Origin: Gammaproteobacteria bacterium
Lineage (GTDB): Bacteria > Pseudomonadota > Gammaproteobacteria > Enterobacterales > Neiellaceae
DNA: 57,494 nt
Assembly: GCA_017425245.1 (NCBI GenBank)
Contig: JAFOOX010000017.1
Coordinates: 1-57,494, forward strand
Direction: 5' to 3'
Each line of letters opens with the position of its first letter. Position 1 is the stretch's first letter. Both the position numbers and the translations under genes were made by a program. Of this stretch, positions 936 to 44,800 are shown in pieces. The notes below the pieces were generated by a model. The model saw only the letters and a list, made by a program, of their open reading frames with translations. It did not search any database and was not told where the DNA came from.

Positions 936-1304
936 TTGGAGATGCGGCTGCGCCGCAGGCATTGAGACAAATCGCGTGGCGATTTGTGTAGGAGCGCCGA
1001 CCGGCCGGCGCGGGCCAGGGCTTGAATTGCCGCTGCGCGGCTGCTGCGCCTGCGGCGCCCGGATGCGGGCTTTCGCGCCCGCGCGACGAGCCAAGCGAGG
1101 GTCGCCGAACCCTCCCTTGGCGAACCCTGTCGGCCCCCACGATCACCACCATCAATATCTGGCTGGCGTTCTGCCGGGCTACGGGGTCGCCACAATGTGC
1201 CATCCATGGCCCATAGTGGCTTTCGGCAACGTCCTGTTGCCTCAACCCCTCCGCCCGACTGGCCGTGGGTTAGCTGGCGTGGGTGTGGGTGGTGATCAAG
1301 GGGG
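936..1304 (-). repeat. Structured repeat, type 1, copy A
   Basis: The strand given is the one on which the hairpin loops read GGA. The core 1141-1297 is bounded by the perfect inverted repeat GATCACCACC / GGTGGTGATC. Inside, GGGGT pairs with ACCCC and encloses two hairpins: GGCAAC/GTTGCC with loop AGGAC, and one closed by GCCAC/GTGGC with apical ATGGAT. On the same strand follow a larger hairpin (arms GCCAAG.../...CTTGGC, 1090-1121), a GCGGGC/GCCCGC hairpin (1065-1082), and the AAATCGC/GCGATTT hairpin near 967-987 that is also in copies G and H. It starts 49 nt beyond the DUF2750 stop codon, on the same strand. Confidence 0.85.
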
Positions 1305-1345
1305 GGATGCGGCGATGGTGCTGATAATAAAGCGTGTGTTCCAAA

Positions 1346-1702
1346 TCACCGGTTTCGCAGGGCCTCCACGTTCCGTTTTAACTCATTGGGAGAAATGTCA
1401 AAACCGGAGGCTGAAGAGCCAGACCAGTTAACTCCAGCCAGCAAATTGTCGCCTGTTAAACCGGGAACCCAGCGGTCGCAAAAGATTTGCCACTGAATAG
1501 GCACTGGGTTGAAGCCGCTATAAGCAGGAACTCCAGAAATGACACTGAGAGCGCGTGATTCCGATGACCAAAATGGCATCGCACGGTTGCCACCACTTGC
1601 AACCGGGGCGGGGAAGCCCGAGGCATCCTTGATACTCCAAATAACGCCTGCTTCTGCGACCTCGCGATAGAACGTTGCTGCATTTGCGGCTGCGATACTC
1701 AT
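1346..1702 (-). CDS. DUF2750 family protein (repeat-flanked cargo)
   Basis: A 118-residue protein of unknown function matching DUF2750: AATFYREVAEAGVIWSI near the N-terminus, then MPFWSSESRA, then IQWQIFCDRWVPGL and AGVNWSG. This order (FY, VW, PFWSS, FxxxWxPxL, GVNW) is the family hallmark. No enzymatic role is established that I know of. The chosen ATG (1700-1702) lies five bases after GTTAGGT (1708-1714 on the complement), an integron-type GTTRRRY core. The same GTTAGGTGCCA block precedes the cargo gene at 36488. An upstream in-frame ATG at 1726 would read through that core and is unlikely. The gene lies between inverted repeat copies A and B. Confidence 0.8.
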   Translation of the reverse strand: MSIAAANAATFYREVAEAGVIWSIKDASGFPAPVASGGNRAMPFWSSESRALSVISGVPAYSGFNPVPIQWQIFCDRWVPGLTGDNLLAGVNWSGSSASGFDISPNELKRNVEALRNR

Positions 1703-1707
1703 CTGGC

Positions 1708-1714
1708 ACCTAAC
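1708..1714 (-). other. Integron attC-like core (GTTRRRY) at cargo gene start
   Basis: GTTAGGT on the minus strand, five bases before the DUF2750 ATG. The block GTTAGGTGCCAGATG is matched at the 36488-37036 cargo gene by GTTAGGTGCCACATG. Core position and spacing fit the 5' boundary of an integron gene cassette. A complete paired attC is not evident upstream, so only the right half-site is supported. Confidence 0.45.
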
Positions 1715-1865
1715 TGTTTTTTTCAACCACCCGGCTTGTTTTCACGTAGCAGTGATCAGCAGCGGTGGGTTCCATGTGTCTGATTTTTATACCGCATCAG
1801 CGCTGAAGTCCAGCAGGCGCTGCGTGAAAAGCGCGAGCGCCAGCAGTGCATGGCCTCGGCTCCTA

Positions 1866-2238
1866 CCCCTCGATCACCACCCGCACGGCGGTAAGCCAAT
1901 GCACGGCCAGCCGGCCGTAGGGGTTGAGGCAACAGGACGTTGCCGAAAGCCACTATGGGCCATGGATGGCACATTGTGGCGACCCCGCAGGCCGGCAGAA
2001 CGGGCAACTGTGGCCAATTGTGGTGATCGTTGGGGGCCGGCTGGAGGTGCAGGAGGAGGGTCCGGCCACCCTCCTCCTGCTCGTCGCGCGGGCGCGAAAG
2101 CCCGCATCCGGGCGCCACAGGCGCATCTGCCGCCATGCAGTGGCATCCGGGCGGCGTAGCCGCAATCTGACGCCGCAGCCGCAATCTGACGCCGCGGCCG
2201 CAATCTCGCGCCACAGGCGCGCCGCCAACGCAGTTGGC
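1866..2238 (+). repeat. Structured repeat, type 1, copy B
   Basis: Inverted partner of copy A. The core 1872-2028 is closed by GATCACCAC / GTGGTGATC. Twin hairpins: GGCAAC-AGGAC-GTTGCC (1928-1944) and the GCCAC/GTGGC hairpin (1949-1980) with apical ATGGAT, separated by CGAAAGC. GGCCGG and GGGGT/ACCCC helices surround them. Downstream comes a hairpin with arms AGGAGGAGGGT / ACCCTCCTCCT, then GCGGGC/GCCCGC, then a run of mini-hairpins ending in GCCAACGCAGTTGGC (2224-2238). It ends about 70 nt before cvrA and would be co-linear with it, so it could form part of its leader if transcription starts upstream. Confidence 0.85.
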
Positions 2239-2286
2239 AAAACCAGCCACCACCAACGCAGTTAACGCCGCCACGCACGTGGCAGG

Positions 2287-2306
2287 TATACTCCGGCTAA
2301 CGGAGG
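2287..2306 (+). promoter_or_regulatory. Candidate -10 and ribosome binding site of cvrA
   Basis: TATACT (2287-2292) resembles a sigma-70 -10 hexamer; the only -35 candidate, TTAACG at 2262-2267, is 19 bp away and weak. GGAGG (2302-2306) lies five bases before the ATG at 2312 and decides that start. Confidence 0.35.
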
Positions 2307-2311
2307 GCGCC

Positions 2312-4042
2312 ATGGACATGACCAACCACCTGCTGTTTCTGGGTGGCCTGCTGATCTTTATCAGCGTGCTGGCCAGCACCATCTCGGCCCGCTTCGGTCT
2401 GCCGCTGCTGCTGGTATTCCTAGGGGTGGGGATGGCGGCCGGGCCAGAAGGGCCGGGCGGCATTCAGTTCAACGACTTTCCGCGCGCCTTTTTCATCGGC
2501 AACCTGGCGCTGGCGGTGATCCTGCTCGATGGCGGCCTGCGCACCCGCATGCACACCTTCCGTGTCGCTCTTAAACCGGCGCTGTCACTGGCCACGCTTG
2601 GCGTAGTAGTAACCGCCGGCGCGGTGGGGCTGTTCGCCTGTCTGCTGCTTGATTTCGACTGGCGCTACGGGCTGCTGCTGGGGGCCATTGTCGGCTCAAC
2701 CGACGCGGCGGCGGTGTTCTCATTGCTGCGCCAGTCGGGCATCAACCTCAACGAGCGGGTGGGCGCCACCCTGGAGATCGAGTCGGGCGCCAACGATCCC
2801 ATGGCGATCTTTCTGGTAATGACGCTGGTGGCCATGCTCAGTGGCGAGACCGCCCCCGGCCCCGGCAACCTGCTGCTCAATTTTGCCCAGCAGTTCAGCG
2901 TCGGTATCGCCGGTGGCGTCGCCGGTGGCTGGCTGCTGGCCCAGTTGCTGCGCCGGGTGCAGCTGGCCGAAGGGCTCTATGCCCTGCTCATTGTCTCGGG
3001 CGGGCTGATCCTGTTTAGCCTGGTCAACAACCTGGGTGGCAGCGGCTTTCTGGCGATCTATCTGTGCGGGCTGATGGTGGGCAACAGCAAGAGCCACGCC
3101 ACCGACCATGTACTCAAGGTGATGGATGGGCTGGCCTGGCTGGCTCAGGCCGGTATGTTCCTCATTCTTGGTTTTCTGGTCACCCCGACGCGGTTGTTTG
3201 CCGATGCTCTGCCCAGCCTGCTGATTGGCCTCTTTATCATCGTGGCTGCGCGGCCACTGGCGGTGTTCATCGGCTTGTTGCCGTTCAAGTTTCCAAAGCG
3301 CGAGCAGCTGTTTGTCTCCTGGGTGGGGTTGCGCGGGGCGGTGCCCATTGTGCTGGCGGTGTTCCCGTTGCTGGCTGGCCTACCCCACAGCGAAACCATC
3401 TTCTCCATCACCTGTTCGGTGGTGGTGATGTCGATGCTGATCCAGGGCAGTAGCCTGCCGTGGATGGCGCGCTTGCTGCGGGTTGAGGTGCCCGCCGATC
3501 CGGCACCGCTGGACCTGCGTCAGGTGCTGGCTACTGATCACCAGCAGTTTGCCCTGATGCAGTTCAGGGTGGCGGCCGAGGCACCGGTGATCGGTTATGG
3601 CTTCGACATTCTCAAGCCCCCCGGCGACGACCATCCGCCGCTACGCGGGGTGGCGGTGGTGCGCGAAGGGCGGCTGCTATTTGCCGACCAGCAGCCGCTG
3701 CTGCAGGCCGGCGATGGCGTGGTGGTGCTGGCCCCTGAGGATGACGGCGCACGACTGGCTCAGCTATTTGTCGACCACCCGACCACTGGCTCACTGGCCG
3801 AGAACCAGTTCTTCGGCGAGTTTGTGGTCAGTGGTGACGTACTGGCCGGCGATCTGGCCGCCGTCTATGGTCTGGAACTGCCGCCGGGGCTGGGTGAACA
3901 GAGTCTGGCGGCGCTGATCTGCACCAGCCTCAACCGTGCCCCGATTGTCGGCGAGCGAGTCAGGGTGGGCGTGGTGCTGTTGACGGTGCGCAGCATGGCG
4001 GCCGGGGCCATCGATCAGGTGGGTCTCAAAGTGGTGGCCTGA
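2312..4042 (+). CDS. cvrA: CvrA/NhaP2-type K(+)/H(+) antiporter
   Basis: A 576-residue inner-membrane cation/proton antiporter of the CPA1/NhaP2 group, almost the length of E. coli CvrA (578). About twelve hydrophobic segments span roughly residues 1-395, with conserved LLDGGLRT, GSTDAAAVFSLL and ESGANDPMAI, the ion-binding region of this family. A soluble C-terminus follows, with an RCK_C/TrkA_C-like part (about 410-480) and a transporter-associated domain (about 490-576). The family exports K+ (in some hosts Na+) in exchange for protons and helps at low osmolarity or alkaline pH. The start is fixed by GGAGG five bases upstream; in-frame ATGs further 5' lie inside repeat copy B. It is transcribed convergently with parC. 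Confidence 0.9.
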   Translation: MDMTNHLLFLGGLLIFISVLASTISARFGLPLLLVFLGVGMAAGPEGPGGIQFNDFPRAFFIGNLALAVILLDGGLRTRMHTFRVALKPALSLATLGVVVTAGAVGLFACLLLDFDWRYGLLLGAIVGSTDAAAVFSLLRQSGINLNERVGATLEIESGANDPMAIFLVMTLVAMLSGETAPGPGNLLLNFAQQFSVGIAGGVAGGWLLAQLLRRVQLAEGLYALLIVSGGLILFSLVNNLGGSGFLAIYLCGLMVGNSKSHATDHVLKVMDGLAWLAQAGMFLILGFLVTPTRLFADALPSLLIGLFIIVAARPLAVFIGLLPFKFPKREQLFVSWVGLRGAVPIVLAVFPLLAGLPHSETIFSITCSVVVMSMLIQGSSLPWMARLLRVEVPADPAPLDLRQVLATDHQQFALMQFRVAAEAPVIGYGFDILKPPGDDHPPLRGVAVVREGRLLFADQQPLLQAGDGVVVLAPEDDGARLAQLFVDHPTTGSLAENQFFGEFVVSGDVLAGDLAAVYGLELPPGLGEQSLAALICTSLNRAPIVGERVRVGVVLLTVRSMAAGAIDQVGLKVVA

Positions 4043-4072
4043 GCAAACGGCCACCACTGCCGGGTTTAAGGC

Positions 4073-6328
4073 TTACCCTTCGGCCACCTCCACCCGGTCG
4101 ACCCGTTGCAGGCCACGGGGCAATTTGGAGCCACGACGGCCACGTTCACCACGGTAATAGTCGAGATCCGAGGCATTAAGCTGCAGCTTGCGCTTGCCCG
4201 CCCACAGCACCACCGCCCGCCCGGCGGGCACCACCGTCAACACCCGCACCACCTCTTCGCGGCTGGCGGCCCGCTCGCCAGGAATGGCAATGATCTTGTT
4301 GCCCTTGCCCTTGGCCAGCTCTGGCAGCTGATCCAACGGGAACAGCAGCATACGCCCATCGCTGGTCACCGCCAGCACCAGCCGGCTGTCGGCGGCTTCC
4401 AGCGCCACCGGTGGCAGCACCTTGGCGCCACTGGGCAGTGACAGCAACGCCTTGCCGGCCTTGTTGCGGCCAGTCATGTCGGCGAAGGTGCAGACAAAGC
4501 CGTAGCCAGCATCACTGGCCAGCAGATAACGCTGCTCCGGCTCGGCCAACAGCAGATGGTCGAAGGTCTCACCGGCGACCGGGGTGAAGCGGCTGGTGAG
4601 CGGCTCGCCCTGGGTACGCGCCGACGGCAGTGAAATGGCGTCGGTGGTGAAGCTGCGACCACTGGAGTCGATAAACACCACATCCTGATTGCTGCGGCCA
4701 CAGGCGGCCGCCTTGAAGCCGTCACCGGCGCGATAGCTGAGCTGATCGGCAGCCACATCATGGCCCTTGGCACAGCGCACCCAGCCTTTCTCCGACAGCA
4801 CCACGGTCACCGCTTCGCTCGGGGTCAGTTCGCGCTCGGTCAGGGCGCGAGCCTCGACCCGTTCGATCAGCGGGCTGCGGCGCGCATCACCATACTTGTC
4901 AGCGGCGGCCTTGATCTCATCTTTCATCAGCTGGCGCAGCTTGGCCGGGTTAGCCAGCAAGGCTTCCAGGGCGTCGCGCTCAAGCGCCAGTTCATCCTGC
5001 TCACCACGGATCTTCATCTCTTCCAGCTTGGCCAAGTGGCGCAGCTTGAGTTCGAGGATCGCTTCCGCCTGACGGTCACTCAGGGCAAAGGTGCGCATCA
5101 GCTCGGCCTTGGGTTCATCCTCATAACGGATGATGCGGATCACCTCGTCGAGATTGAGGAAGGCGATCAGCAAACCTTCGAGGATATGCAGCCGCGCCAG
5201 CACCTTGTCGAGGCGATATTCGAGACGGCGGATCACCGTCTGGCGACGGAACTCAACCCACTCCGACAGCAGGTTGTGCAGATCGCGCACCTGCGGCCGC
5301 CCATTGAGGCCGATGATGTTGAGGTTGATCCGGTAGCTCTTTTCCAGCTCGGTGGTGGCGAACAGGTGGGCCATCAGCGGCTCCACCTCGACGCGGTTGG
5401 AGCGCAGCACGATCACCAGCCGCACCGGGCTTTCATGGTCGGACTCATCGCGCAGATCGGTGACCAGCGGCAGCTTCTTGGCCTGCATCTGACCGGCGAT
5501 CTGCTCGAGGATCTTGCCGCTTGACGCCTGATGCGGCAGGGCGCTGATGATCACCTCATTGCCGTCGACCTGATAGACGGCGCGCATTTTGACCGAGCCA
5601 CGGCCGCTCTCGTAGATCTTGGCCAGCTCGCTGGTGGGGGTGATGATCTCGGCTTCGGTCGGGTAATCGGGCCCCGGCAGATAGGCCATCAGCTCGCTGA
5701 CGGTGGCACCGGGGTGATCGAGCAGGTGAACGCAGGCGTTGGCCACTTCGCGCGCATTGTGCGGCGGAATGTCAGTGGCCATACCCACGGCGATGCCGGT
5801 GACGCCGTTGAGGAGCACATGGGGCAAGCGCGCCGGCAGTACCTTGGGCTCTTCCAAGGTGCCGTCGAAATTGGGCACCCAGTCAACGGTGCCCTGACCC
5901 AGCTCGTCGAGCAGCAGTTCAGAGAATTTGGACAGCCGCGCTTCGGTGTAGCGCATGGCGGCGAACGACTTGGGATCGTCCGGCGCCCCCCAGTTGCCCT
6001 GACCGTCGATCAGCGGGTAGCGGTAACTGAACGGCTGGGCCATCAGTACCATCGCCTCATAACAGGCGCTGTCCCCATGGGGGTGGAATTTACCCAGCAC
6101 GTCACCCACGGTGCGCGCCGATTTCTTGTACTTGGCGGCAGCCGACAACCCCAGCTCGCTCATGGCGTAGACGATGCGCCGCTGCACTGGCTTGAGGCCA
6201 TCGCCGATATGGGGCAGAGCGCGATCCATGATCACGTACATCGAATAGTTGAGGTAGGCCTGTTCGGTGAACTGGTGCAGCGGCAGGCGCTCCACCCCTT
6301 CGAGGCTCAGACTGGCTTCATCACTCAT
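4073..6328 (-). CDS. parC: DNA topoisomerase IV subunit A
   Basis: A 751-residue ParC, close to the 752 of E. coli. It forms the ParC2ParE2 enzyme that decatenates replicated chromosomes. The N-terminal breakage-reunion domain contains [25 protein letters not shown] and the catalytic tyrosine in [10 protein letters not shown]. The quinolone-determining positions equivalent to E. coli Ser80 and Glu84 are unchanged (Ser87 and Glu91 here, shifted by a longer N-terminus). The C-terminal part carries degenerate beta-pinwheel repeats. It lies downstream of parE but is separated from it by three c-di-GMP genes, an arrangement I do not know from E. coli. Confidence 0.97.
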
Positions 6329-6510: not shown

Positions 6511-6532
6511 CGCTCTCCCTGCCCGACCAGCC

Positions 6533-33135: not shown

Positions 33136-36100
33136 ATGACCCTTGCCGAACTCTCTGATTTGCCCCTGCCCAGCGCCAGTGCGCCGCTGTGGCAGCTGCT
33201 GCAGCAGCAGATCCACACCGACGAAGCACAACTGGTGGCCGCCATCTGCGCCCTACTGCCCCTGACCGACAGCACCCTGACCGCCAGCGAAGAGCAGGCC
33301 AGCCGCTGGATCGATGAGGTGCGGCGCAGCCCCCGTCAGCCCCTGGCTCAGCAACTGCTGCACCACTACCGGCTGGATGGCGACGAAGGGCGGGCGCTGA
33401 TGACCTTGGCCGAAGCCCTGCCACGCATCAGCGACAGTGCCACCGCCAGCGCCTTTATTGCCGACCGCCTGCAGCGCGGCCAGTGGCAGCCAAGTGCCGA
33501 CCATCAGGGCTGGCTCAAGGCCGCTGGCCACGGTTTGGGGTTGGCCACCCGGCTGGTCAGCGCTGATCCTGAGCCGCGCTGGTGGCAGCGGCTGACCAGC
33601 CCCCTCACCGCCCGCATCATCCGCCGCGCCATCGGCCAGCTCGGCGGCCAGTTTGTCCTTGGCCAGCAGCTGCCGGCGGCGCTCAAGGCCGCAAGCCGCC
33701 AGCGGCGCGAGCTGCAGCTCAGCCACAGCTTCGACATGCTCGGCGAAGCCGCGCAAAGCGCCGCCGCTGCCCAGCGCTATGCCGAACGCTACCAGCAGGC
33801 GATCGCGGCCGTGGCCGCCAGCCGCAGCAGTGATGGGGTGGCCCCAGCCACGGTATCGATCAAGCTGTCGGCGCTCCACCCGCGCTATCAGGCCAGCCAG
33901 CAACCACGGGTGCTGGCCGAGCTGGGGGCCACCCTGACGGCACTGGTGACCCAGGCCCGCGCCCTGGATGTCAGCCTGCAGCTGGATGCCGAGGAGTGTG
34001 CCCGCCACAGCCTGCTGCTGCAGCTGTTCAGCCAGCAGCTGGAGGGGCCAGCGCGCGGCTGGGGGGGCCTCGGCATCGTGGTTCAGGCCTATGCCAAATG
34101 GGCGTTGCCGACGCTGGTGTGGCTGGCCAACCTCGGCCAGCAGACGCAAACCGCCATCCCGCTGCGGCTGGTCAAGGGCGCCTACTGGGACAGCGAGATC
34201 AAGCACGCCCAGGCCCACGGCCTCAGCCACTACCCGCTGTTCACCAACAAGCGCCATACCGATCTCAACTACCTGCTGTGTGCCCGCTACCTGCTGTGCC
34301 AGCCCGCCGCCCACTATCTGCAGCCAGCCTTTGCCACCCACAACGCCCAGACCCTGGCCAGCGTGCTGACCCTGGCCGGCGACCGGCCCTTTGAGTGGCA
34401 GCGGCTGTGGGGCATGGGTGATGAGCTAAGCGCCGTGGTGCGCGCCAGCCAACCGCAGCTGGTGCAGCGCATCTATGCACCTGTGGGTGAACACCGCGAC
34501 CTGCTGCCCTACCTGATCCGCCGCCTGCTGGAAAATGGCGCCAACAGCGCCTTTGTCCATCAGCTGGCCGACAGCAAAGTGGCCGTCGCCGAGCTGGCCC
34601 GCCACCCGCTGCGTCATACCGGGCCCAGTGCGCCACTGCTGCCCTTGCCGGCCGCCATCTTCGGCCAGCGCCAGCGCGCCCAAGGGCTGGACCCGGCACT
34701 GGCGGCGGAACGCCTGCCGCTGCAGGCGGCGCTAGCGCCGTGGCGCCAGCATCAATGGCAGGCCAGCGCCCCCGGTGACATCGACCAGCCGTGGCGCCCC
34801 TGCCGCTCGCCCCAAAACCCGCAGGACCTGGTAGGGCACTGCCGCGATACCGACCACGCCAGCCTACAGCAGGCCTTGGCGCGCAGTGCGCTAGCCTTTG
34901 GCAGCTGGCAGCAACGGCCGCTGACGGCGCGCGCCGCGCTACTGGAGCATGCCGCACTGTTGTTCGAGCAGCATCAGCCCGAGCTGCTGGCGCTGTGCGT
35001 GCGTGAAGCGGGCAAAACCCTGAGCAACGCCATCGACGAACTGCGCGAAGCGGTCGATTTTCTCCGTTACTACGCCAGCGAGGCGCGCAGCACCCTGGCC
35101 CCGCGCCAGCTGCCGGCGATCACCGGCGAGCGCAACGAACTGCGCTATGAGGGGCGCGGCCCGCTGCTGTGCATCAGCCCGTGGAACTTTCCGCTGGCGA
35201 TCTTCACCGGCCAGATCGCCGCCGCCCTGGTCGCTGGCAACACGGTGCTGGCCAAGCCAGCCGAGCAAACCCCGCTCATCGCCGCCCGGGCCATCGCCCT
35301 GCTGCATGAGGCCGGCGTCCCGGCCGAGGTGGTGCAACTGCTGCCGGGCCCCGGCGAGACCATCGGCGCCCAGCTGGTGCGCGATCCGCGCATCGCCGGG
35401 GTGATCTTCACCGGCAGCGAAGCCACAGCACGCGCCATCAATCTCAGCCTGGCCCAACGGCCGGGCCCCCTGCTGCCCTTGATCGCCGAAACCGGCGGGC
35501 TCAACGCCATGGTGGTGGATGAGACCGCGCTGGCCGAACAGGTGGTCAACGATCTGCTGCGCAGCGCCTTCGACAGCGCCGGCCAGCGCTGCTCCGCCTG
35601 CCGCCTGCTGCTGGTGCAGCAGGAGCTGGCCGAGCCGCTGATCACCGCACTGGGCGGCGCCATGGCGGAGCTGACCGTCGGCGATCCCTGGCTGCTGGAA
35701 ACCGATATCGGTCCGGTGATCGACGCCGACGCCCAAGCGGCGCTGGAAGCTCATATCAACGCCATGCGCAGCCAGGGCCGGCTGCTGAGCAGCAGCGCGG
35801 TACCGGCCAGCGACGGCCACTTTGTCGCCCCCACCCTGATCGAACTGGAGAGTCTGGCGCCGCTGCAGCAGGAGGTATTCGGCCCGGTGCTCCACCTGCT
35901 GCGCTACCCGCGCGACCAGCTACCGCTGCTGCTGGCCGAACTGCGGGCCACCGGCTTCGGCCTGACGCTGGCCATCCACAGCCGCAATCAGGGCTTTGCC
36001 GACCAGATCGCCGCCGCCATGCCGGTGGGCAATGTCTACATCAACCGCAATCAGGTGGGCGCCGAGGTGGAAGCCCAACCCTTCGGCGGTCGCGGCCGCT

Positions 36101-36297
36101 CCGGCACCGGCCCCAAAGCCGGCGGCCCCCACTACCTGCTGCGGCTGGTGCAGGAGAAGTGCATCACCACCAACCTCACCGCCGTGGGGGGGAATCTGGA
36201 TTTATTGATGAGCGGTGGAGCGGGGGGGCAGAGGGGCGTATCGCCAAGCCCCTCTGCACACCCGGGCGCCCCCAAGATCACCACTATCTATTACTGA
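33136..36297 (+). CDS. putA: Bifunctional proline dehydrogenase / P5C dehydrogenase
   Basis: A 1053-residue PutA that oxidises proline to glutamate. The FAD-binding proline dehydrogenase barrel spans about 110-470 (LQLDAEECARHS, RLVKGAYWDSEIKHAQAHG, FEWQRLWGMG). The aldehyde dehydrogenase spans about 545-1030, with catalytic Glu in LIAETGGLNAM and catalytic Cys in SAGQRCSACR. No ribbon-helix-helix DNA-binding domain is seen at the N-terminus, unlike E. coli PutA. The normal C-terminal motif ITTNLTAVGGN is followed by about 29 unusual residues encoded by repeat copy C (SGGAGGQRGV...); the stop codon lies within the repeat core. This suggests the repeat landed in the 3' end and replaced the original terminus, probably without damage. 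Confidence 0.93.
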   Translation: MTLAELSDLPLPSASAPLWQLLQQQIHTDEAQLVAAICALLPLTDSTLTASEEQASRWIDEVRRSPRQPLAQQLLHHYRLDGDEGRALMTLAEALPRISDSATASAFIADRLQRGQWQPSADHQGWLKAAGHGLGLATRLVSADPEPRWWQRLTSPLTARIIRRAIGQLGGQFVLGQQLPAALKAASRQRRELQLSHSFDMLGEAAQSAAAAQRYAERYQQAIAAVAASRSSDGVAPATVSIKLSALHPRYQASQQPRVLAELGATLTALVTQARALDVSLQLDAEECARHSLLLQLFSQQLEGPARGWGGLGIVVQAYAKWALPTLVWLANLGQQTQTAIPLRLVKGAYWDSEIKHAQAHGLSHYPLFTNKRHTDLNYLLCARYLLCQPAAHYLQPAFATHNAQTLASVLTLAGDRPFEWQRLWGMGDELSAVVRASQPQLVQRIYAPVGEHRDLLPYLIRRLLENGANSAFVHQLADSKVAVAELARHPLRHTGPSAPLLPLPAAIFGQRQRAQGLDPALAAERLPLQAALAPWRQHQWQASAPGDIDQPWRPCRSPQNPQDLVGHCRDTDHASLQQALARSALAFGSWQQRPLTARAALLEHAALLFEQHQPELLALCVREAGKTLSNAIDELREAVDFLRYYASEARSTLAPRQLPAITGERNELRYEGRGPLLCISPWNFPLAIFTGQIAAALVAGNTVLAKPAEQTPLIAARAIALLHEAGVPAEVVQLLPGPGETIGAQLVRDPRIAGVIFTGSEATARAINLSLAQRPGPLLPLIAETGGLNAMVVDETALAEQVVNDLLRSAFDSAGQRCSACRLLLVQQELAEPLITALGGAMAELTVGDPWLLETDIGPVIDADAQAALEAHINAMRSQGRLLSSSAVPASDGHFVAPTLIELESLAPLQQEVFGPVLHLLRYPRDQLPLLLAELRATGFGLTLAIHSRNQGFADQIAAAMPVGNVYINRNQVGAEVEAQPFGGRGRSGTGPKAGGPHYLLRLVQEKCITTNLTAVGGNLDLLMSGGAGGQRGVSPSPSAHPGAPKITTIYY

Positions 36298-36437
36298 CGA
36301 AGGTTCTGCCGGGCTACGGGGTCGCAAATATGGGCTGTCCTGCCCAGATTTGCTTTCGCTGGCATCCCTGCCAGCTCAACCCCTACACCCAGCTGGCTGT
36401 TCGTTGGCTGGCGTAAGTGCGGGTGGTGATCAAGGGG
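36222..36437 (-). repeat. Structured repeat, type 1, copy C (inside putA 3' end)
   Basis: The core 36276-36431 is closed by GATCACCAC / GTGGTGATC. On the minus strand the twin hairpins are GCTGGC-AGGGAT-GCCAGC and one with GCAAAT...TGGGC arms and loop AGGACA. These are quite different stems from copies A and B, but the NGGA loops are the same. The flanking helix is GCCGGG/CCCGGC here against GCCGGCC/GGCCGGC in B and D. The larger hairpin has GCAGAGGGGC / GCCCCTCTGC arms (36228-36257). It overlaps the last codons of putA and begins 57 nt past the stop of the 36488 cargo gene, on the same strand. Confidence 0.85.
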
Positions 36438-37505: not shown

Positions 37506-37530
37506 CACCCCAACAGCACGGTCTCCTCAC

Positions 37531-37846
37531 CCGTTTGAGCAACGCCGCGATCACGCAGCAGCCAACCACGGCATCGGGGCTGGTGGTGGGTCGAGGTGAC
37601 AGGAAGTCACCGAGAGCGAGCCCGGCACAGGGAAGTGCCGTCGAGCGGCCCACCAGCAGCACCGGAACAGGCCACAGATCTGGATAGCGCTGCTCTACCG
37701 GGCCGCCGGGATTGGTAAGGGCCGGGCGGGTCCGGCCCTTACCCGGCCAGCGCCGGCCGGTCGGCGCTCTTATCAAATCGCCACGCGATTTGTCTGAATG
37801 TGCCCATCAGGGCGGCGTAGCCGCATCTGCCACTACGCAGTTGGCA
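37531..37846 (+). repeat. Structured repeat, type 2, copy G
   Basis: A related architecture with different primary sequence. TGGTGGG / CCCACCA closes two hairpins: GGTGAC-AGGAA-GTCACC (37595-37611) and CGGCAC-AGGGAA-GTGCCG (37623-37640), separated by CGAGAGC. Then come a 12-bp hairpin GGTAAGGGCCGG / CCGGCCCTTACC (37714-37743), the GCGCC/GGCGC region and the hairpin CAAATCGCCACGCGATTTG (37774-37792) shared with copies A and H, ending in GCAGTTGGC. Tandem behind copy D and reading towards the alkaline phosphatase gene. Confidence 0.85.
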
Positions 37847-37946: not shown

Positions 37947-38032
37947 CTGATCTGCACACACTGCGCTGGCGCCTTACTGCGGCAACAGTAATGCGCATTC
38001 CCGTTTCAGGACTACCAATTGCGAGGATTGCC

Positions 38033-39562
38033 ATGAACAGAACTTCCCAGATCCTGACCGTGCTGGCTAAGGCAGTCGCTTCCGCGCTGCTGGCCAGTGC
38101 CGCTCAGGCGGCTGTGTTACCCGCCCATCAGACCAGCAGCAGCTGGTATACCAGCGCCGCCAGCGATATCAGCGCCAAAGCGATGACCACCCCACGTACC
38201 GGCACCGCCAAGAATGTCATCCTGTTTGTCGGCGACGGCATGGGGGTTTCCACCCTCACCGCCGCCCGCATCTATCAGGGTCAGAAGAAAGCCGGCAACC
38301 AGGGTGGTGAAGAGAACCGCCTGAGTTTCGAGACCTTCCCGTACAGCGCACTCTCCAAGACCTATTCGGTCAACCAGCAGACCCCCGATTCGGCACCGAC
38401 CATGACCGCCATGGTCACTGGCGTCAAAACCGAAGATGGCATGATCTCTGTCTCTGCTGATTCAATCCGCGCCAACTGCGAATCGAGCAAGGGCAATGAG
38501 CTAGTGTCCGCCCTTGAACTGGCGGAAGCCAAAGGCAAGGCCACCGGGGTGATCAGCACCGCCCGCGTCACCCATGCCACGCCGGCTGCCACCTACGCCA
38601 AGAGCCCGGAGCGCAACTGGGAAGCGGACAGCAACCTGACCGCCGAGGCCAAGGCTAACGGCTGCCATGACATCGCCTACCAGTTGGTGATGACCCCGCC
38701 CGGAGACGGCCTGGAAGTCGCCCTCGGCGGTGGCCGCAGCTACTTCCTGCCCAACACCACCACCGATGGCGAAGGCACCAAAGGACGGCGCAAGGACGAC
38801 ATGGACCTGACCAGTCAGTGGACCACCCGCTTTACCAATGCTGCTTATGTATGGAACGCCGAGCAGTTCGCCGCTGTGGATGTGGCCACCACCGACCATC
38901 TGCTGGGGCTGTTTGAAGGCTCGCACATGCAGTATGAAGCCGACCGCGCCGATGATCTCGGCGGTGAGCCGTCGCTGGCCGAGATGACCAGCAAGGCGCT
39001 GGATCTGCTGGCCAAAAATCAGAATGGCTACTTTCTGATGGTTGAAGCAGGGCGTATCGACCATGCCCACCATGCCGGCAATGCGGTCCGTGCGCTGGCC
39101 GACACCGTCGCACTGTCGGACGCCGTGGCTGCCGCTGTGGCCAAGGTCAATCTGGACGAAACCCTGATCATTGTCACTGCTGACCACAGCCATGTGTTCA
39201 CCATTGCCGGCTACCCGGCCCGCGGCAATCCGATCCTCGGCCTGGTCCACGATCCGGATGACACCGAGATCCGTCCTACCCCGTCACTGGCCGCCGATGG
39301 CCTGCCCTACACCACCCTTGGTTACACCAACGGCCCCGGTGCCAAAAATGGCCCGCGTGCCGACCTCTCTGTCATCGATACCGCCGGTCTCGACTTTATG
39401 CAGCAGGCCCAAGTACCGCTGGGCAGTGAAACCCATGCGGGTGAAGACGTCGCCATCTATGCGATCGGCCCCGGTGCCCACCTGTTCCAGGGCTCGGTCG
39501 AACAGCACCAGATCTTCCACGTCATCAATCAGGCCGGCGATCTCGGCGGCACCAAGTACTAA
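38033..39562 (+). CDS. Secreted alkaline phosphatase (PhoA superfamily)
   Basis: A 509-residue periplasmic or secreted alkaline phosphatase that releases phosphate from organic monoesters. The signal peptide ends near ...ASAAQA. Metal and catalytic blocks are all present: NVILFVGDGMGVSTL (Asp ligand), TPDSAPTMTAMVTG with the nucleophilic Ser, LMVEAGRIDHAHHAGN, VTADHSHVF and a late SETHAGEDVA His. The ATG at 38033 has AGGA upstream; the frame is open further back into repeat copy G, but that part is not coding. It overlaps nothing downstream; the second phosphatase starts 20 bp after its stop. A PhoB-like box lies about 90 bp upstream. Confidence 0.93.
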   Translation: MNRTSQILTVLAKAVASALLASAAQAAVLPAHQTSSSWYTSAASDISAKAMTTPRTGTAKNVILFVGDGMGVSTLTAARIYQGQKKAGNQGGEENRLSFETFPYSALSKTYSVNQQTPDSAPTMTAMVTGVKTEDGMISVSADSIRANCESSKGNELVSALELAEAKGKATGVISTARVTHATPAATYAKSPERNWEADSNLTAEAKANGCHDIAYQLVMTPPGDGLEVALGGGRSYFLPNTTTDGEGTKGRRKDDMDLTSQWTTRFTNAAYVWNAEQFAAVDVATTDHLLGLFEGSHMQYEADRADDLGGEPSLAEMTSKALDLLAKNQNGYFLMVEAGRIDHAHHAGNAVRALADTVALSDAVAAAVAKVNLDETLIIVTADHSHVFTIAGYPARGNPILGLVHDPDDTEIRPTPSLAADGLPYTTLGYTNGPGAKNGPRADLSVIDTAGLDFMQQAQVPLGSETHAGEDVAIYAIGPGAHLFQGSVEQHQIFHVINQAGDLGGTKY

Positions 39563-39582
39563 TGCAGGGGAAGGACATACTC

Positions 39583-41202
39583 ATGGAATTCAAGAAACTT
39601 GCTCTGGCATTGGCCATCGGCCTGAGCCTCGCCCTTAGCGGTTGCGGTGACGATGGTGACGACGGCGTGGCCGGTACCCCTGGTCAGAATGGCACCCCTG
39701 GCCAGGATGGCGCCCCTGGCCGTGACTACACCGAGGTCAACAGCTGGTACACCAGCGCCTCGGCGGCGGTCTCGCGCGCCAGCACCACCAACTTCAATGA
39801 AACGGCCGGAGCGGCCAAAAACGTCATCCTCTTTGTGGGCGACGGTATGGGGATCTCCACCCTGACCGCTGCCCGCATCCTCGAAGGCCAGCTGGCCGGC
39901 GAAATGGGCGAAGATCACCGCCTGAGCTTTGAGACCTTCCCTCATGTCGGGCTGGTCAAGACCTACAGCTCTAACCAGCAGACGCCCGACTCGGCCCCGA
40001 CCATGACCGCAATGGTCACCGGCGTTAAAACCAAGGATGGTCTGGTCAGCGTCAGCGACGCCGCTGTGCGCTCAAACTGCACATCGGGTCAGGGTCAGGA
40101 ACTGGTGACCAGCCTGATGCTGGCCGAGATGGCCGGCATGAGCACCGGCATCATCAGTACCGCCCGCCTGACCCACGCCACCCCGGCCGCCACCTACGCT
40201 CACAGCGTCAACCGCGACTGGGAGGCAGACAGCAATATGCCAGCTCAGGCGATCACAGATGGTTGTAAGGATATCGCTGCCCAGCTAATCGATTTCAGTT
40301 ACGGCGATGGTATCGAAGTGGCACTGGGTGGTGGCCGCAGCTACTTCACACCCAACACCACTCAAGACCCGGAATATGGCAGCAACGGCCGCCGCCGCGA
40401 TGGTCGCGACCTGACCGCAGAATGGACCAGCAAGTACAGCAACAGCGCCTATGTCTGGAACCGCGACCAGTTCCTGGCTGTGGATACCAGCACCACTGAC
40501 CACCTGTTGGGGTTGTTCGAACCTTCACATCTGCAGTACGAAGCCGACCGCGCCGACGACACCGCCGGTGAGCCGTCGCTGGCCGAGATGACCAGCCGCT
40601 CGCTGGATATCTTGAAACGCAACGACAACGGCTACTTCCTGATGGTGGAAGCGGGTCGTATCGACCACGCCCACCATGCCGGCAACGCCGCCCGTGCCCT
40701 GCACGACACCATTGCTCTGTCGGATGCGGTACGGGTGGCGATTGAAAAGGCCGGCCCGGATACCCTGATCCTGGTTACCGCCGACCACAGCCACGTGTTC
40801 ACCATTGCCGGATACCCGACCCGGGGCAACCCAATCCTCGGTCTGGTGCGTGGCAACAACGCCGACGGCAAGCCGGCCGCCGGCTACGACACCGATGCCA
40901 ACGGCATGCCTTACACCACCTTGGGCTACGCCAATGGTCCGGGCTTCGGCTTCGGCAGTGACCCGATGAATCAGGATGACCAGCGCCCGGATCTCAACCT
41001 CTACGACGTCACCAGCATCGACTTCCGCCAAGAAGCGACCGTACCCATGGGCAGCGAAACCCATGCCGGTGAAGACGTGGCGGTATTTGCCACAGGCCCG
41101 GGGGCCAGCCTGGTGAGCGGCTCGATCGAGCAGCATGCACTGTTCCATGTGATGGCGCGCGCAGCCAATCTGGTCGCCCGCGCCGAAGCCGCTCAGCCAT
41201 AA
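39583..41202 (+). CDS. Alkaline phosphatase lipoprotein with Gly-X-Y linker
   Basis: A 539-residue paralogue of the preceding phosphatase, with the same catalytic blocks: NVILFVGDGMGISTL, TPDSAPTMTAMVTG, LMVEAGRIDHAHHAGN, TADHSHVF and SETHAGEDVA. It differs at the N-terminus: a type II signal with lipobox LSGC, then an acidic stretch (GDDGDDG) and a short collagen-like Gly-X-Y run (GTPGQNGTPGQDGAPGRD) before the catalytic domain. It is therefore likely a membrane-tethered, possibly surface-exposed phosphatase on a flexible stalk. Asp residues after the lipid Cys may affect sorting. The ATG at 39583 follows an AAGGA site. A strong hairpin follows its stop. Confidence 0.92.
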   Translation: MEFKKLALALAIGLSLALSGCGDDGDDGVAGTPGQNGTPGQDGAPGRDYTEVNSWYTSASAAVSRASTTNFNETAGAAKNVILFVGDGMGISTLTAARILEGQLAGEMGEDHRLSFETFPHVGLVKTYSSNQQTPDSAPTMTAMVTGVKTKDGLVSVSDAAVRSNCTSGQGQELVTSLMLAEMAGMSTGIISTARLTHATPAATYAHSVNRDWEADSNMPAQAITDGCKDIAAQLIDFSYGDGIEVALGGGRSYFTPNTTQDPEYGSNGRRRDGRDLTAEWTSKYSNSAYVWNRDQFLAVDTSTTDHLLGLFEPSHLQYEADRADDTAGEPSLAEMTSRSLDILKRNDNGYFLMVEAGRIDHAHHAGNAARALHDTIALSDAVRVAIEKAGPDTLILVTADHSHVFTIAGYPTRGNPILGLVRGNNADGKPAAGYDTDANGMPYTTLGYANGPGFGFGSDPMNQDDQRPDLNLYDVTSIDFRQEATVPMGSETHAGEDVAVFATGPGASLVSGSIEQHALFHVMARAANLVARAEAAQP

Positions 41203-41220
41203 GGCTGAGTCGGCCCCAAG

Positions 41221-41246
41221 CTGCCCCGGCCAGCAGGCCGGGGCAG
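41221..41246 (+). terminator. Strong hairpin after the second phosphatase gene
   Basis: An 11-bp perfect stem, CTGCCCCGGCC / GGCCGGGGCAG, with loop AGCA, 18 bp past the stop and followed by TGCTGTTTA. It may attenuate transcription into the next gene, which starts 38 bp later. Confidence 0.6.
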
Positions 41247-41284
41247 TGCTGTTTACCACCCGATCCTGTACTTGGAGAATGACC

Positions 41285-42016
41285 ATGCTGCGTTCACTGC
41301 TTACCGCTACCAGCCTGCTGCTGGCCCTGCCAGCTGCTGCCAGCTTCTGCCCCGACCAGCCGGCCACCGGCAGCTGGGGGCTGAGCTACCAGCTCGACAA
41401 CAACGGCCAGCGCAGCGGCACCCTTGAGATCCTGCGCCACGGCAGCGATACCGCCCTTTACAATCCTGATCGCCAGATTGGCGAATGGTGGGTGCTGGCC
41501 GACAGCAAGCGACCGCGCTTTCACCGCCTGTTTGGCGAGCAGCAGCGGCGTATCGACTACACCACCGGCGACCTGCGCGCCCTTGGCGTTAACGTCAATA
41601 TCGACAGCATCGAGAGCTTCGCCATGGCGCCCCTGCTCAGCCATCTCAAAGCCGGTGACGCCGTCGCCGACTGCCCGGCCGCCCGCCACTACAGCGGCGA
41701 GATCAACGGCAGTCACTACGAGGTTAACTGGCATTCGGCGCTCAAGCTGCCGCTGCTGCTGGAGACCCGTAAAGCGGGCCAGGTACGCCGCTGGCAGGCC
41801 AACGCGCTAATCAACGAACCAACGGTAAATCAGCGCTTTGGCCAGTGGCTCGACTTTCAGCCAACCGATTTTGCCGATATCGGCGACATGGAAACCGACC
41901 CCTTTCTGGCCAAGCTGATCACCCAGGGCTTTATCGAACACGCCCACCCCACCGCCTACAACAGCGATGGCACGGTGATCAGCAGTGAAGGTGACCATGC
42001 TGGTCATGGCCATTGA
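41285..42016 (+). CDS. Exported protein of unknown function with His-rich tail
   Basis: A 243-residue protein I do not recognise. A signal peptide (MLRSLLTATSLLLALPAAAS) is followed by FCPDQPATGSWGLSYQLDNN, a beta-rich middle, and a tail ending HAGHGH with further histidines (IEHAHP), which could bind metal. Two cysteines (early FCPD and ADCPAA) may form a disulfide. It follows the two alkaline phosphatases on the same strand, so a periplasmic role in phosphate or metal (Zn) handling is possible but unproven. The start at 41285 has GGAG seven bases upstream. Repeat copy E begins within 10 bp of its stop. Confidence 0.65.
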   Translation: MLRSLLTATSLLLALPAAASFCPDQPATGSWGLSYQLDNNGQRSGTLEILRHGSDTALYNPDRQIGEWWVLADSKRPRFHRLFGEQQRRIDYTTGDLRALGVNVNIDSIESFAMAPLLSHLKAGDAVADCPAARHYSGEINGSHYEVNWHSALKLPLLLETRKAGQVRRWQANALINEPTVNQRFGQWLDFQPTDFADIGDMETDPFLAKLITQGFIEHAHPTAYNSDGTVISSEGDHAGHGH

Positions 42017-42020
42017 TTGA

Positions 42021-42460
42021 GCTGCCGCTGCGTGGCGGCAGGTTGTAGCTGCCAACGCCGTTGGCGATGCGCCTGCGGCGTGGCAGCAGAATGCGAGGCT
42101 CCCCGCCTCGTGCTGGGGCCGCGTTAATGCCGCTGCGCGGCAGATGCGGCTGCGCCGCCGGATTGCGGCTACGCCGCGCGGATGCCAACTGCGTTGGCCA
42201 TGCGGCTGCGCCGCGGCAGAGTGGGCTTTCGCGCCCACACGACGAGCCAAGGGAGGGTCGCCGAACCCTCCCTTGGCGAACCCTGTCGGCCCCCAAAGAT
42301 CACCACCATCACGATCTGGCTGTAGTTCTGCCGGGCTACGGGGTCGCAAATATGGGCTGTCCTGCCCAGATTTGCTTTCGCTGGCATCCCTGCCAGCTCA
42401 ACCCCTACACCCGGCTGGCCGTGGGTTGGCTGGCGTGGGTGCGGGTGGTGATCAAGGGGT
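42021..42460 (-). repeat. Structured repeat, type 1, copy E, with mini-hairpin array
   Basis: The core 42298-42453 is closed by GATCACCACC / GGTGGTGATC. The twin hairpins equal those of copy C (loops AGGGAT and AGGACA on the minus strand). The large hairpin GCCAAGGGAGGGT / ACCCTCCCTTGGC lies just outside the core. The 42021-42235 part is an array of roughly nine short palindromes with varied 5-6 bp stems and mostly three-base loops (for example GCGGC-TGC-GCCGC, GCGGC-TAC-GCCGC, GCCAAC-TGC-GTTGGC), including GTGGGC/GCCCAC. It starts directly after the upstream gene's stop. Confidence 0.85.
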
Positions 42461-42651
42461 GGATGGGGAATGCAGCACCAGTGCTAATGGTCAGGTGTCC
42501 CCGATCTGCGGATCGGGTTGGCTGCCTGATTAGCAACGGTGCAGGGAGATAGGGCAATAGCAGCTACTTACAGATCTTGGGCGCTTGGAACATCCCTTGT
42601 CGCATTGGCATCACCAGGGGCCTTGTTGATCAAATCGCCCTGCAGGCTCTG
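42461..42651. other. Intergenic stretch between copy E and its cargo
   Basis: Contains the inverted near copy of the 17-bp D/G repeat (42494-42510) and GATCTGCGGATC. No gene is visible. At its right edge, GTTAGAT (42655-42661, plus strand) overlaps the end of the small membrane protein gene and fits GTTRRRY, but no paired site was found. Confidence 0.4.
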
Positions 42652-42990
42652 TTAGTTAGATGTTTTACGAATCAGGCTTGCAAACAATGAACTCGCTATA
42701 ATCGACGTATAAAGGCCGCTATAACCTAAAACAATTACAAATGCAGCAACAATTAACAAAGATGGATTTTCGAATAAAAACCCTAAAAACTCACTCTCTT
42801 TCCCGACAAATAGCTCGCCTAAGGGCTTTAAAATCATCACCGAAATGTATGTGAACAAACCACAGAGTAGAAATCTAATCTCATACCTGATGCTTGATTC
42901 CCAATGAGACGATTGCAGCAGCAACAAGCCTGCAATCATAGAAATCTGAAATTTAATTTTTTCCATTTTCGAAGGCGTCCCCTTAAACAT
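42652..42990 (-). CDS. Small multi-pass membrane protein (AT-rich cargo)
   Basis: A protein of about 112 residues, not recognised. Three hydrophobic segments are visible: FQISMIAGLLLLQSS, a middle one around FLLCGLFTYISVMIL, and LLIVAAFVIVLGYSGLYTSI, with a basic C-terminus (LIRKTSN). Start options are ATG 42990 (AAGG nearby), ATG 42966 or a TTG at 43005; none is decisive. It follows the PIN-like gene on the same strand after about 100 bp and shares its low GC, so the two probably arrived together. A membrane effector or anchor for a defence pair is a hypothesis. Confidence 0.6.
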   Translation of the reverse strand: MFKGTPSKMEKIKFQISMIAGLLLLQSSHWESSIRYEIRFLLCGLFTYISVMILKPLGELFVGKESEFLGFLFENPSLLIVAAFVIVLGYSGLYTSIIASSLFASLIRKTSN

Positions 42991-43093
42991 AACCTTCAGG
43001 ATCAAGGACTTGTCGGATCTGTTGTTTTTGAGTGCTATAAAAAAGAACTCAAAAACGCTGCGGAGAGCAAGTCCATTGGAGCCAATTTCTAGC

Positions 43094-43906
43094 TCACGCC
43101 TCTAGCACCTTTTTAAGGTTAAAATGAAGATTTTGAACACTTTTCTCGTAACTAAGAATCCCATCAAAATAAGACCCTAGAATTACATAACTGTTATCCA
43201 GTAGCTCATTGGTAACCTTTTCAGGCTTATAGCCCTCAAAACCACCATTGGATATCCATTTAAAAGCTCTCAATAAACAAACATACAGATATCTTGCATT
43301 TATGGGATTTTCATTAACAAAATCGTTTGCTTTACTACCGGCATACCCCATTTCTGAGAAATACTTAGTAAATGCCGCCGGAACCAAGCTCCTAATTTCT
43401 TGATTGAGGGCATCGTCAGTAATTTGTTTCTTTACTAGCGCATTTTTAAAATCTGGGTTAATGTCATCTTTTATTCGTTCAATTAAGCCACCAAATGTTA
43501 ATTTGCACTGTTGGTGGTTTAGAATTCCCGACCTAAAAACATCCACATTCGCACTAAGTTTTGATTTTAATAGTGTAAATGACGTCCCAAACTCTTGCCT
43601 CTTTATCTCTCCCAGCAGGCCTTTAAAAAAGGCATTGTAATCTTCTCTCACTAAATCGTTTTTAGTAATGGCTCTATTATTACTATTCTCAAATGCCATT
43701 GCTTCATCAATAGATATGATGAAATCCACTTGATCCGGAATTTCAGAAATGGTTTTTAGTGAGGCTCTAATAGTAGATTCCCACTGTTCTGATTTGCTCA
43801 TTTCTAACAATGCGGAGTCAGTGACAATAAATCTATTGCTTGAATTATTTACCAAATTTTTTAAATCATCCTTCCTGAAATAATTTTGATCTACAACGTA
43901 TTCCAT
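43094..43906 (-). CDS. PIN-like domain protein (AT-rich cargo)
   Basis: A 270-residue protein with no name I can give. It starts MEYVVDQNYF, a strand with an early Asp as in PIN nucleases, followed by FIVTDSALLEM, which supplies the acidic helix. Near the C-terminus NELLDNSYVILGSYFDGILSYEK resembles the PIN motif D-x-x-Y-x-x-x-A-x-Y-x-D-x-x-x-T-D-D, but with SYEK in place of TDDK. A large helical insert (about 90-200) separates the parts. PIN proteins are usually Mg2+-dependent RNases, often toxins; the altered last acidic site leaves activity uncertain. The GC content is much lower than the host's, pointing to recent transfer. It lies between repeat copies E and H/F with a small membrane protein downstream. 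Confidence 0.55.
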   Translation of the reverse strand: MEYVVDQNYFRKDDLKNLVNNSSNRFIVTDSALLEMSKSEQWESTIRASLKTISEIPDQVDFIISIDEAMAFENSNNRAITKNDLVREDYNAFFKGLLGEIKRQEFGTSFTLLKSKLSANVDVFRSGILNHQQCKLTFGGLIERIKDDINPDFKNALVKKQITDDALNQEIRSLVPAAFTKYFSEMGYAGSKANDFVNENPINARYLYVCLLRAFKWISNGGFEGYKPEKVTNELLDNSYVILGSYFDGILSYEKSVQNLHFNLKKVLEA

Positions 43907-44056
43907 TTGAAAATTCCCTTATTGAGCCAACTTTTTAATTGCTCCGAGGACACCCACTCGAACCCACTCGAAACGCCGCAGAGAAAGCCTACCTTATCGG
44001 CAGCCCTGCAAAATGTGAACAAACGCCAAATCCAGGCTGCGGCTCAATCTGCCAAC

Positions 44057-44410
44057 CCCGTTTGAGCAGCGCCAAGATCACACAGCAGCCAAACACGGCA
44101 TCGGGGCTGGTGGTGGGTCGAGGTGACAGGAGGTCACCGAGAGCGAGCCCGGTACATGGATGTACCGTCGAGCGGCCCACCAGCAGCACCGGAACAGACC
44201 ACTGGCATCAATCGCGCTGCTCTACCGGGCCGCCGGGATTGGTAAGGGCCGGGCGGGTCCGGCTCTTGCCCGGCCTGCGCCGGCCGGTCGGCGCTCTTAT
44301 CAAATCGCCACGCGATTTGTCTGAATGTGCCCATCCGGGCGGCGCAGCCGCAATCTAACGCCACGCAGTGGCATCTACTGCGGCGCAGCCGCATCGCCAA
44401 CGCAGTTGGC
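44057..44410 (+). repeat. Structured repeat, type 2, copy H
   Basis: Sister of copy G. TGGTGGG/CCCACCA encloses GGTGAC-AGGAG-GTCACC (44122-44138) and GGTACATGGATGTACC (44151-44166). Compared with G, the second stem changed on both arms (GGCAC/GTGCC to GGTACAT/ATGTACC). The GGTAAGGGCCGG hairpin keeps pairing through G-T wobbles. The shared hairpin CAAATCGCCACGCGATTTG is at 44301-44319. Then four mini-hairpins with GCA loops follow, the last GCCAACGCAGTTGGC (44396-44410). Confidence 0.85.
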
Positions 44411-44426
44411 TACTGGGCCATCGCAG

Positions 44427-44453
44427 CCCTTCGACAAGCTCAGGGCGAACGGG
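44427..44453. repeat. Short palindromic repeat containing TTCGACAAGCTCAGGG
   Basis: CCCT and AGGG arms flank TCGACAAGCTC, followed by CGAACGGG. I recall nearly this sequence as a dispersed short repeat in many unrelated bacterial genomes; here a single copy lies between repeat copies H and F. Function unknown. Confidence 0.4.
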
Positions 44454-44483
44454 CCACGCAGCGGCACCATCTCCGTCTGCCCC

Positions 44484-44800
44484 ACCCCTCGATCACCACC
44501 GGCACGGCGGTCAGCCGACGCACGGCCAGTCGGCAGTAGGGGTTGAGTCGCCTGGACGGCGACGAAAGCCACTAAGGCACAGGGAGGTGCCTTTGTGGCG
44601 ACCCCGCAGGCCGGCAGAACGGACAAATGTTGTCGATGGTGGTGATCGCTGGGGGCGCCCGGGTGTGCAGAGGGGCGTGGCGATACGCCCCTCTGCCCCA
44701 GCGCGAGGCGGGGAGCCTCGCATTCTGCCGCCACGCAGTGGCATCTGCTGCGGCGCAGCCGCCATTCAGCGCTCCAGGCGCGACCGCCAGCGCAGTTGGC
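44484..44800 (+). repeat. Structured repeat, type 1, copy F
   Basis: Distal inverted partner of copy E. The core 44491-44647 is closed by GATCACCACC / GGTGGTGATC. Twin hairpins: TCGCC-TGGAC-GGCGA (as in D) and GCCAC...GGCAC-AGGGAG-GTGCC...GTGGC. The large hairpin is GCAGAGGGGCGT / ACGCCCCTCTGC, as in copy C. Next, GCGAGGC-GGGGA-GCCTCGC replaces the GCGGGC hairpin of other copies. GCA-loop mini-hairpins end at GCCAGCGCAGTTGGC (44786-44800). Confidence 0.85.

Follow-up and report, generated by a model that had tools for sequence, protein, structure and literature searches.

Here we report a comparative analysis of a family of structured repeats in a 57,494-nt stretch of DNA (hereafter, the window; contig JAFOOX010000017.1 of assembly GCA_017425245.1) from a gammaproteobacterium of the family Neiellaceae, together with related elements in the same genome and in other bacteria. 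A profile search identified exactly eight full-length cores in the window, six of which (A to F) belong to type 1 and two (G and H) to type 2. Judged by sequence and predicted fold, the family is a divergent variant of the TwoAYGGAY RNA family (RF01731), and not a member by the Rfam rule. We give about an even chance to the reading that these repeats are divergent TwoAYGGAY relatives, often arranged as outward-facing pairs around islets of accessory genes, and that each probably acts as an RNA transcribed away from the islet, in which the pair of GGA hairpins is predicted to bind a single CsrA dimer. The units of the window are located as follows.

936..1133, minus strand: tail of A, a larger hairpin followed by small GC-rich hairpins
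1134..1303, minus strand: core A, type 1 (outer helix, P2, P3, twin GGA hairpins); RF01731, 41.6 bits at 1181-1251
1865..2035, plus strand: core B, type 1; RF01731, 41.7 bits
2036..2238, plus strand: tail of B; partly the same tail stands beside a type-2 core in genome G001
36220..36268, minus strand: outer stem-loop of C, entered by the PutA reading frame
36269..36437, minus strand: core C, type 1; RF01731, 37.6 bits
37181..37350, plus strand: core D, type 1; RF01731, 30.4 bits
37351..37457, plus strand: tail of D
37530..37710, plus strand: core G, type 2; no Rfam report at E <= 5
37711..37846, plus strand: tail of G
42021..42290, minus strand: tail of E, with small hairpins
42291..42460, minus strand: core E, type 1; RF01731, 37.1 bits
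44057..44237, plus strand: core H, type 2; no Rfam report at E <= 5
44238..44410, plus strand: tail of H
44484..44653, plus strand: core F, type 1; no Rfam report at E <= 5
44654..44800, plus strand: tail of F

Architecture of the repeat units

In the core, which spans about 170-180 nt, an outer helix and an inner closing helix enclose two hairpins that have GGA-containing loops and are linked by CGARAGC. The core is followed by a tail consisting of a larger hairpin and, in most copies, small GC-rich hairpins. The fold is a comparative model, and its comparison with shuffled sequences gave z = -6.2 for copy B and z = -2.9 for copy G. A sequence-only reading of this DNA had described eight copies with longer coordinates, which correspond to the cores together with their tail hairpins, and its observation of GGA in all 16 loops was confirmed by eye. 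The helix that it took to be outermost is present; in type 2, this helix is itself enclosed by an additional one, GAGCAGCGC/GCGCTGCTC.

The tails are themselves structured: 418 small hairpins (at least 5 bp, 3-nt loop; for example, at 2140-2238 and 44340-44410) were counted in 118 tails vs 61.6 in base shuffles, and 239 of them have the form C-GCA-G, a loop that is very stable in single-stranded DNA.

Relationship to the TwoAYGGAY family

No Rfam family exceeded its cut-off anywhere in the window, the gathering cut-off of RF01731 being 43 bits. At relaxed thresholds, RF01731 was the best match of cores A, B, C, D, and E with the scores listed above, and the three alignments shown fall on the twin hairpins. 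The sequence-only reading had proposed an Rfam search and had not recognized the family, a statement that no longer holds given these sub-threshold matches to five of the eight copies (30.4-41.7 bits) and the Pseudomonas relatives that exceed the cut-off. In the genome of the window (G000), 24 copies matched RF01731 at E <= 0.001, none of them over the cut-off, and one of the 12 matches in a metagenome-assembled genome (MAG) of the congeneric Corallincola exceeded it (47.3 bits).

The window family shares with TwoAYGGAY two neighboring GGA-loop hairpins within a closing helix, a dispersed distribution, and close outward pairs that are found in other genera as well. The loops of hairpin 2 are mostly ANGGAN, with AGGACA or AGGAGA in 22 of 70 type-1 copies. 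Unlike TwoAYGGAY, the window copies score below the gathering threshold, their type-1 hairpin 1 has mostly 5-nt loops, and the family possesses its own outer helix, modular tails, and cargo between the arms. In the accessible excerpts of earlier reports, TwoAYGGAY is described as a family of unknown function (PMC4333381) and as relatively unexplored (PMC11661157).

Conservation and covariation across the genome

Profile searches in 573 kb fetched from G000, a genome that is 89% complete, identified 115 full-length cores, which divide into 73 type-1 and 42 type-2 copies, as well as about 30 truncated cores, 27 of them with the 5' part only. GGA is present in both hairpins of all 70 scored type-1 copies (the remaining three, with an unrecognized linker, were unscored), and in hairpin 1 of all 42 and hairpin 2 of 41 type-2 copies. 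Hairpin 1 is closed by a stem of at least 4 bp in 69 of 70 type-1 and 39 of 42 type-2 copies, and hairpin 2 by a stem of at least 3 bp in 70 of 70 and 39 of 42 copies, respectively.

Base pairs were counted in 71 aligned type-1 copies, with two shortened copies (L057 and L118) omitted. Standard pairs fill 98.5% of the cells (shuffled mean, 86.9), and 17 of the 37 pairs changed on both sides vs a shuffled mean of 12.0, a value equalled in one of 500 shuffles. When the pairing partner was moved by one to three columns, pairing fell to 32-55%. The covariation and these slid controls back the earlier proposal that selection acts on a folded strand. The accompanying claim, that stems vary while pairing is kept, stands as far as the paired cells and double-changed pairs go, with the qualification that much of this variation comes from allele swapping and not from independent changes.

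The cores that retain only their 5' part often lie 5-113 nt upstream of a complete core (L051 5104-5385, L070 10938-11333, L111 7983-8258), an arrangement reminiscent of an old unit partly overwritten by a new one.

Candidate CsrA-binding sites

The motif ACANGGANGT was found on the sense strand of 56 of the 115 cores, on the antisense strand of none, and 11 times elsewhere in the 573 kb on both strands. The full consensus RUACARGGAUGU, given for CsrA by systematic evolution of ligands by exponential enrichment (SELEX) in the available part of PMC4347634, occurs exactly twice in this DNA, both times inside cores. In 96 of the 115 cores, a distance of 27 or 29 nt separates the outermost GGA triplets of the hairpin region. 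The host genome has one match for a CsrA gene (G000:C47:203580-203735). As far as its accessible text goes, a 2014 study predicted CsrA binding by TwoAYGGAY (PMC4333381). The window family resembles the sponge RNAs CsrB, RsmX, RsmY, and RsmZ in having several GGA hairpins and differs from them in consisting of more than 100 dispersed copies with two sites each. RF01731 belongs to clan CL00106, the clan of these sponge RNAs.

Outward-facing arrangement of the units

Orientation was counted for 65 consecutive near-full core neighbors less than 6.5 kb apart, where -+ denotes 5' ends facing each other and tails pointing outward. We found 28 -+, 24 ++, 9 --, and 4 +- neighbors. Five of the 28 -+ pairs contain no cargo, with a gap of 43-46 nt, and the remaining ones have spacings of 0.56-5.1 kb. 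In six other genomes, 19 of 22 neighboring RF01731 matches within 600 nt, counted by hand from the match lists, have the -+ orientation (11/11 in Pseudomonas sp. N040, 2/2 in Stutzerimonas azotifigens, 2/3 in P. pseudonitroreducens, 2/2 in the Corallincola MAG, 2/3 in G060, and 0/1 in G017), and many more matches in these genomes stand single. The 18 fetched pairs, 17 of them -+, have hairpin-to-hairpin gaps of 74-386 nt, mixed gene contexts, and no room for large cargo. Since cargo-free close pairs occur across genera, namely in the genus of the window, Pseudomonas, Stutzerimonas, and a fourth genus, the close outward pair looks like the basic unit, many copies of which appear to have been opened around cargo in the window genus.

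The outward pairing and the cargo look like the new part of this system, the RNA structure being a variant of a known one. No title on paired TwoAYGGAY arms or their link to integrons was found in a title-only literature search that covered subscription journals thinly, and the word "integron" occurs zero times in the accessible text of PMC2864571, the one TwoAYGGAY paper to which this word search was applied.

Cargo genes and integron platforms

The sequence-only reading had missed that the copies bound cargo. In the window, the following cargo features were identified.

1346..1726, minus strand: DUF2750 gene (PF11042, E 1e-20)
1693..1839, minus strand: Pc/attI-like platform, comprising a promoter-like segment and, immediately ahead of the cargo start, GTTAGGT; resembles the platform by intI on contig C1
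36488..37036, minus strand: open reading frame (ORF) of 182 aa, no family
42652..43005, minus strand: ORF of 117 aa, no family
43094..43906, minus strand: ORF of 270 aa with a weak PADLOC match, PDC-S34 (E 0.0009)

Elsewhere in G000, contig C1 (L101 321-5458) carries a complete integron between a type-2 core (321-500, minus strand) and a type-1 core (5291-5458, plus strand), both facing outward. It comprises intI (623-1630, minus strand; TIGR02249, 381.9 bits, cut-off 265) together with a Pc/attI segment and roughly six cassettes parted by GTTRRRY-type boundaries, as seen by eye. This is the only intI over the cut-off in the 89% complete genome, and 19 of 26 searched genomes, including that of the window, have one. 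A Pc/attI profile made from 14 flanks 5' of cores and one segment beside intI gave 17 hits in the fetched DNA, of which 15 were kept, including 1693-1839 beside core B; a hit on C61 that overlaps a type-2 core (E 2.6e-5) and a 64-nt hit at C74:118152 were not counted. These hits suggest many integrase-less Pc/attI platforms beside the single intI. In all 14 hits backed by a core, the core points away; this is a consequence of building the profile from core flanks and thus provides no evidence on orientation.

For the cargo scan, 85 ORFs were chosen from 121 after removal of inter-unit host genes and of ORFs that were short or doubtful. Among the 25 of 37 Pfam families listed, Fic, PIN, HipA, ParDE, and AHH nucleases have one to three members each, and among the 25 of 188 PADLOC families listed, PtuA has two members, PtuB one, and SoFic two; the matches to AriA, LmuB, and AbiLi may represent the AAA proteins already counted as PtuA. 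The cargo is predicted from sequence to consist of anti-phage, toxin-antitoxin, integron, and family-less genes. Its mean GC content is 0.539 (112 ORFs) vs 0.625 for 21 host genes of the window.

Possible turnover at islet edges

Arm C is located at the extreme 3' end of putA. The PutA proteins of five family relatives terminate in GGNAxLL(S/T)LGD(A/G) followed by a stop codon. The window PutA (33136-36297) has lost this stop, and its frame continues for 24 residues into the arm. The congeneric genome G001 has an orthologue of the gene at 2312, with 91% identity, and the tail beside it resembles that of B (84% over 113 nt). At this locus (L181 630-980), a type-2 core with other upstream genes, by eye a ParDE-like pair, replaces core B and DUF2750. 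The likeness between G001 and the window begins at the core/tail boundary. The pattern at this one locus fits an exchange by putative recombination within shared arms. We found no clean empty site.

In two relatives from a different genus (L175, L177), putA is directly followed by another kind of twin-GGA stretch, as seen by eye, with no Rfam match.

Distribution in other genomes

A search of 40 genomes, including that of the window, with model R1 gave matches in two, both of the same genus, and in none of five other genomes of the bacterial family. At least 69 matches were obtained in G000, a lower bound because at most 69 candidates per genome were scored. A pattern scan of genome contigs yielded 25 stretches, including 21 with twin hairpins by eye (seven from the Corallincola MAG and 14 Pseudomonas-type), one doubtful from Porticoccaceae, and three that are chance-like. 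RF01731 exceeded the cut-off in five of eight pattern-scan loci submitted to Rfam, all five being Pseudomonas-type. When 23 stretches from other genera were folded singly, 12 formed the closing helix and both hairpins, and seven more formed both hairpins; the other four, whose folds do not include both hairpins, were cut short. The cross-genus alignment (A6) is poor outside the GGA loops.

A distant blastn search of the plasmid collection with core B and a TwoAYGGAY copy from a Pseudomonadales MAG (L152) gave no match, and a scan of viral contigs gave three stretches, all without a second hairpin by eye. RF01731 had no match at E <= 0.5 in 14 stretches of family relatives and G001, including the type-2 copy of L181.

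Proposed role and alternative explanations

We propose that transcripts leaving an islet, such as integrase or cassette mRNAs, would carry the core in sense orientation at their 3' ends, that this predicted site would be bound by CsrA, and that the many core-bearing 3' ends would jointly titrate CsrA or shield the transcripts. The cargo of an islet would probably be exchanged through recombination within the shared arms; in islets that have a Pc/attI platform, the integron integrase would probably contribute as well. We hold only tentatively, as a possible extension open to considerable doubt, a broader version in which TwoAYGGAY would be a mobile outward pair of CsrA-binding arms, opened here for exchangeable cargo. 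Such pairs may form RNA-edged docking sites across the genome, hosting toxin-antitoxin and phage-defence genes as well as integron platforms on which a single integrase acts in trans, and outgoing transcripts would end in a CsrA clamp that ties accessory genes to the global regulator of the host.

Several observations weigh against the CsrA-binding outward pair. None of the eight window copies reaches the RF01731 cut-off, with F, G, and H unreported at E <= 5, and type-1 hairpin 1 loops are mostly 5-nt NGGAN (NGGAC) or AGGGAT, not AYGGAY. The ++ neighbors (24) are almost as frequent as the -+ ones (28), and one close pair in P. pseudonitroreducens is +-. The excess of further pair types is small (37 vs 34.2 in shuffles; 9/500). 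Furthermore, the stems form a handful of whole-hairpin alleles, some of them common to both types. The double changes are therefore not independent events, and module exchange, beside point mutation, made much of the covariation, which is largely swapping of whole-hairpin alleles. A protein other than CsrA could be the partner of the short conserved GGA, and the repeats may act at the DNA level.

The evidence on the folding strand, which rests on modeled structures, is mixed, differs by subtype, and also speaks against an RNA read outward. Forward folds are better than reverse ones for type 1 (-55.2 vs -49.1) and type 2b (-68.8 vs -62.7), slightly worse for type 2a (-48.9 vs -51.3), and worse for the pooled type-2 alignment (-38.1 vs -43.9); five type-2 copies with an insertion were omitted from the per-subtype test. 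G.T exceeds A.C by 79 to 10 in a structure that was predicted on the same strand. This excess was dropped as an argument on the folding strand because the reverse strand folds comparably.

A DNA-level explanation, which we regard as rather unlikely, holds that the arms are ends of a non-autonomous transposon resembling a miniature inverted-repeat transposable element (MITE) and working at the level of folded DNA, to which the GGA loops and the RNA form are incidental. It agrees with the more than 100 dispersed copies, the GC content of the cargo (0.539 vs 0.625 in the host), the cargo-free pairs 43-46 nt apart, the tails rich in C-GCA-G triloop hairpins, and a precedent in Acinetobacter, in which, according to the available excerpt of PMC10969869, MITEs flank class 1 integrons. 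It is at odds with the sense-strand-only ACANGGANGT signal of the cores and with the variable arm ends, C being devoid of small tail hairpins, and Y1 transposase (PF01797) had no match in the 89% complete genome, where other transposases and target-site duplications were left unsearched. The inverted elements of Acinetobacter resemble the window arms in flanking integrons and differ from these TwoAYGGAY-like units with mixed cargo. Repetitive extragenic palindromic (REP) sequences and bacterial interspersed mosaic elements (BIMEs) are dispersed palindromic intergenic pairs moved by RAYT. They are alike in this dispersed, palindromic, and paired form; unlike them, the window core is much longer and structured, and the window genome gave no Y1 transposase.

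An unlikely alternative is that the core, with no part for CsrA, is a simple structure at RNA 3' ends or an insulator, parting islet from host transcripts. The strong fold of copy B, arm C at the end of putA, and the outward orientation would all be expected of such a structure, which leaves unexplained the GGA retained in two loops on changing stems and the match to the CsrA consensus. We consider it highly improbable that the integron integrase recombines the core as a large folded att site. One intI does lie between two cores, about 15 Pc/attI platforms occur in the fetched DNA, and integron integrases recognize folded DNA hairpins, as stated in the accessible part of PMC11641012. However, the core ends are without GTTRRRY/RYYYAAC boxes (alignments A3 and A4, by eye), the close pairs in Pseudomonas and other genera (gaps of 74-386 nt) are too tight for a cassette, and stretches around eight intI genes of relatives gave no RF01731 match at E <= 0.1.

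On the reading that we propose, TwoAYGGAY gains an anatomy of close outward pairs, seen in four genera, and a genomic setting, which in one genus is the border of accessory-gene and integron islets. A role that can be tested there, GGA-dependent binding of CsrA, would be assigned to an orphan RNA family.

Other repeats near the units

A repeat, CCCTTCGACAAGCTCAGGGCGAACGG, recurs directly 5' of several cores, for example at 44425-44460, and short tandem repeats (GGGAAGT, TAGCGAG, and GAGATAC) adjoin several cores (L056, L061, L101). Between two islets of the window, two tandem ORFs (37991-39562 and 39562-41202) share 73-85% identity in stretches within 38372-40847.

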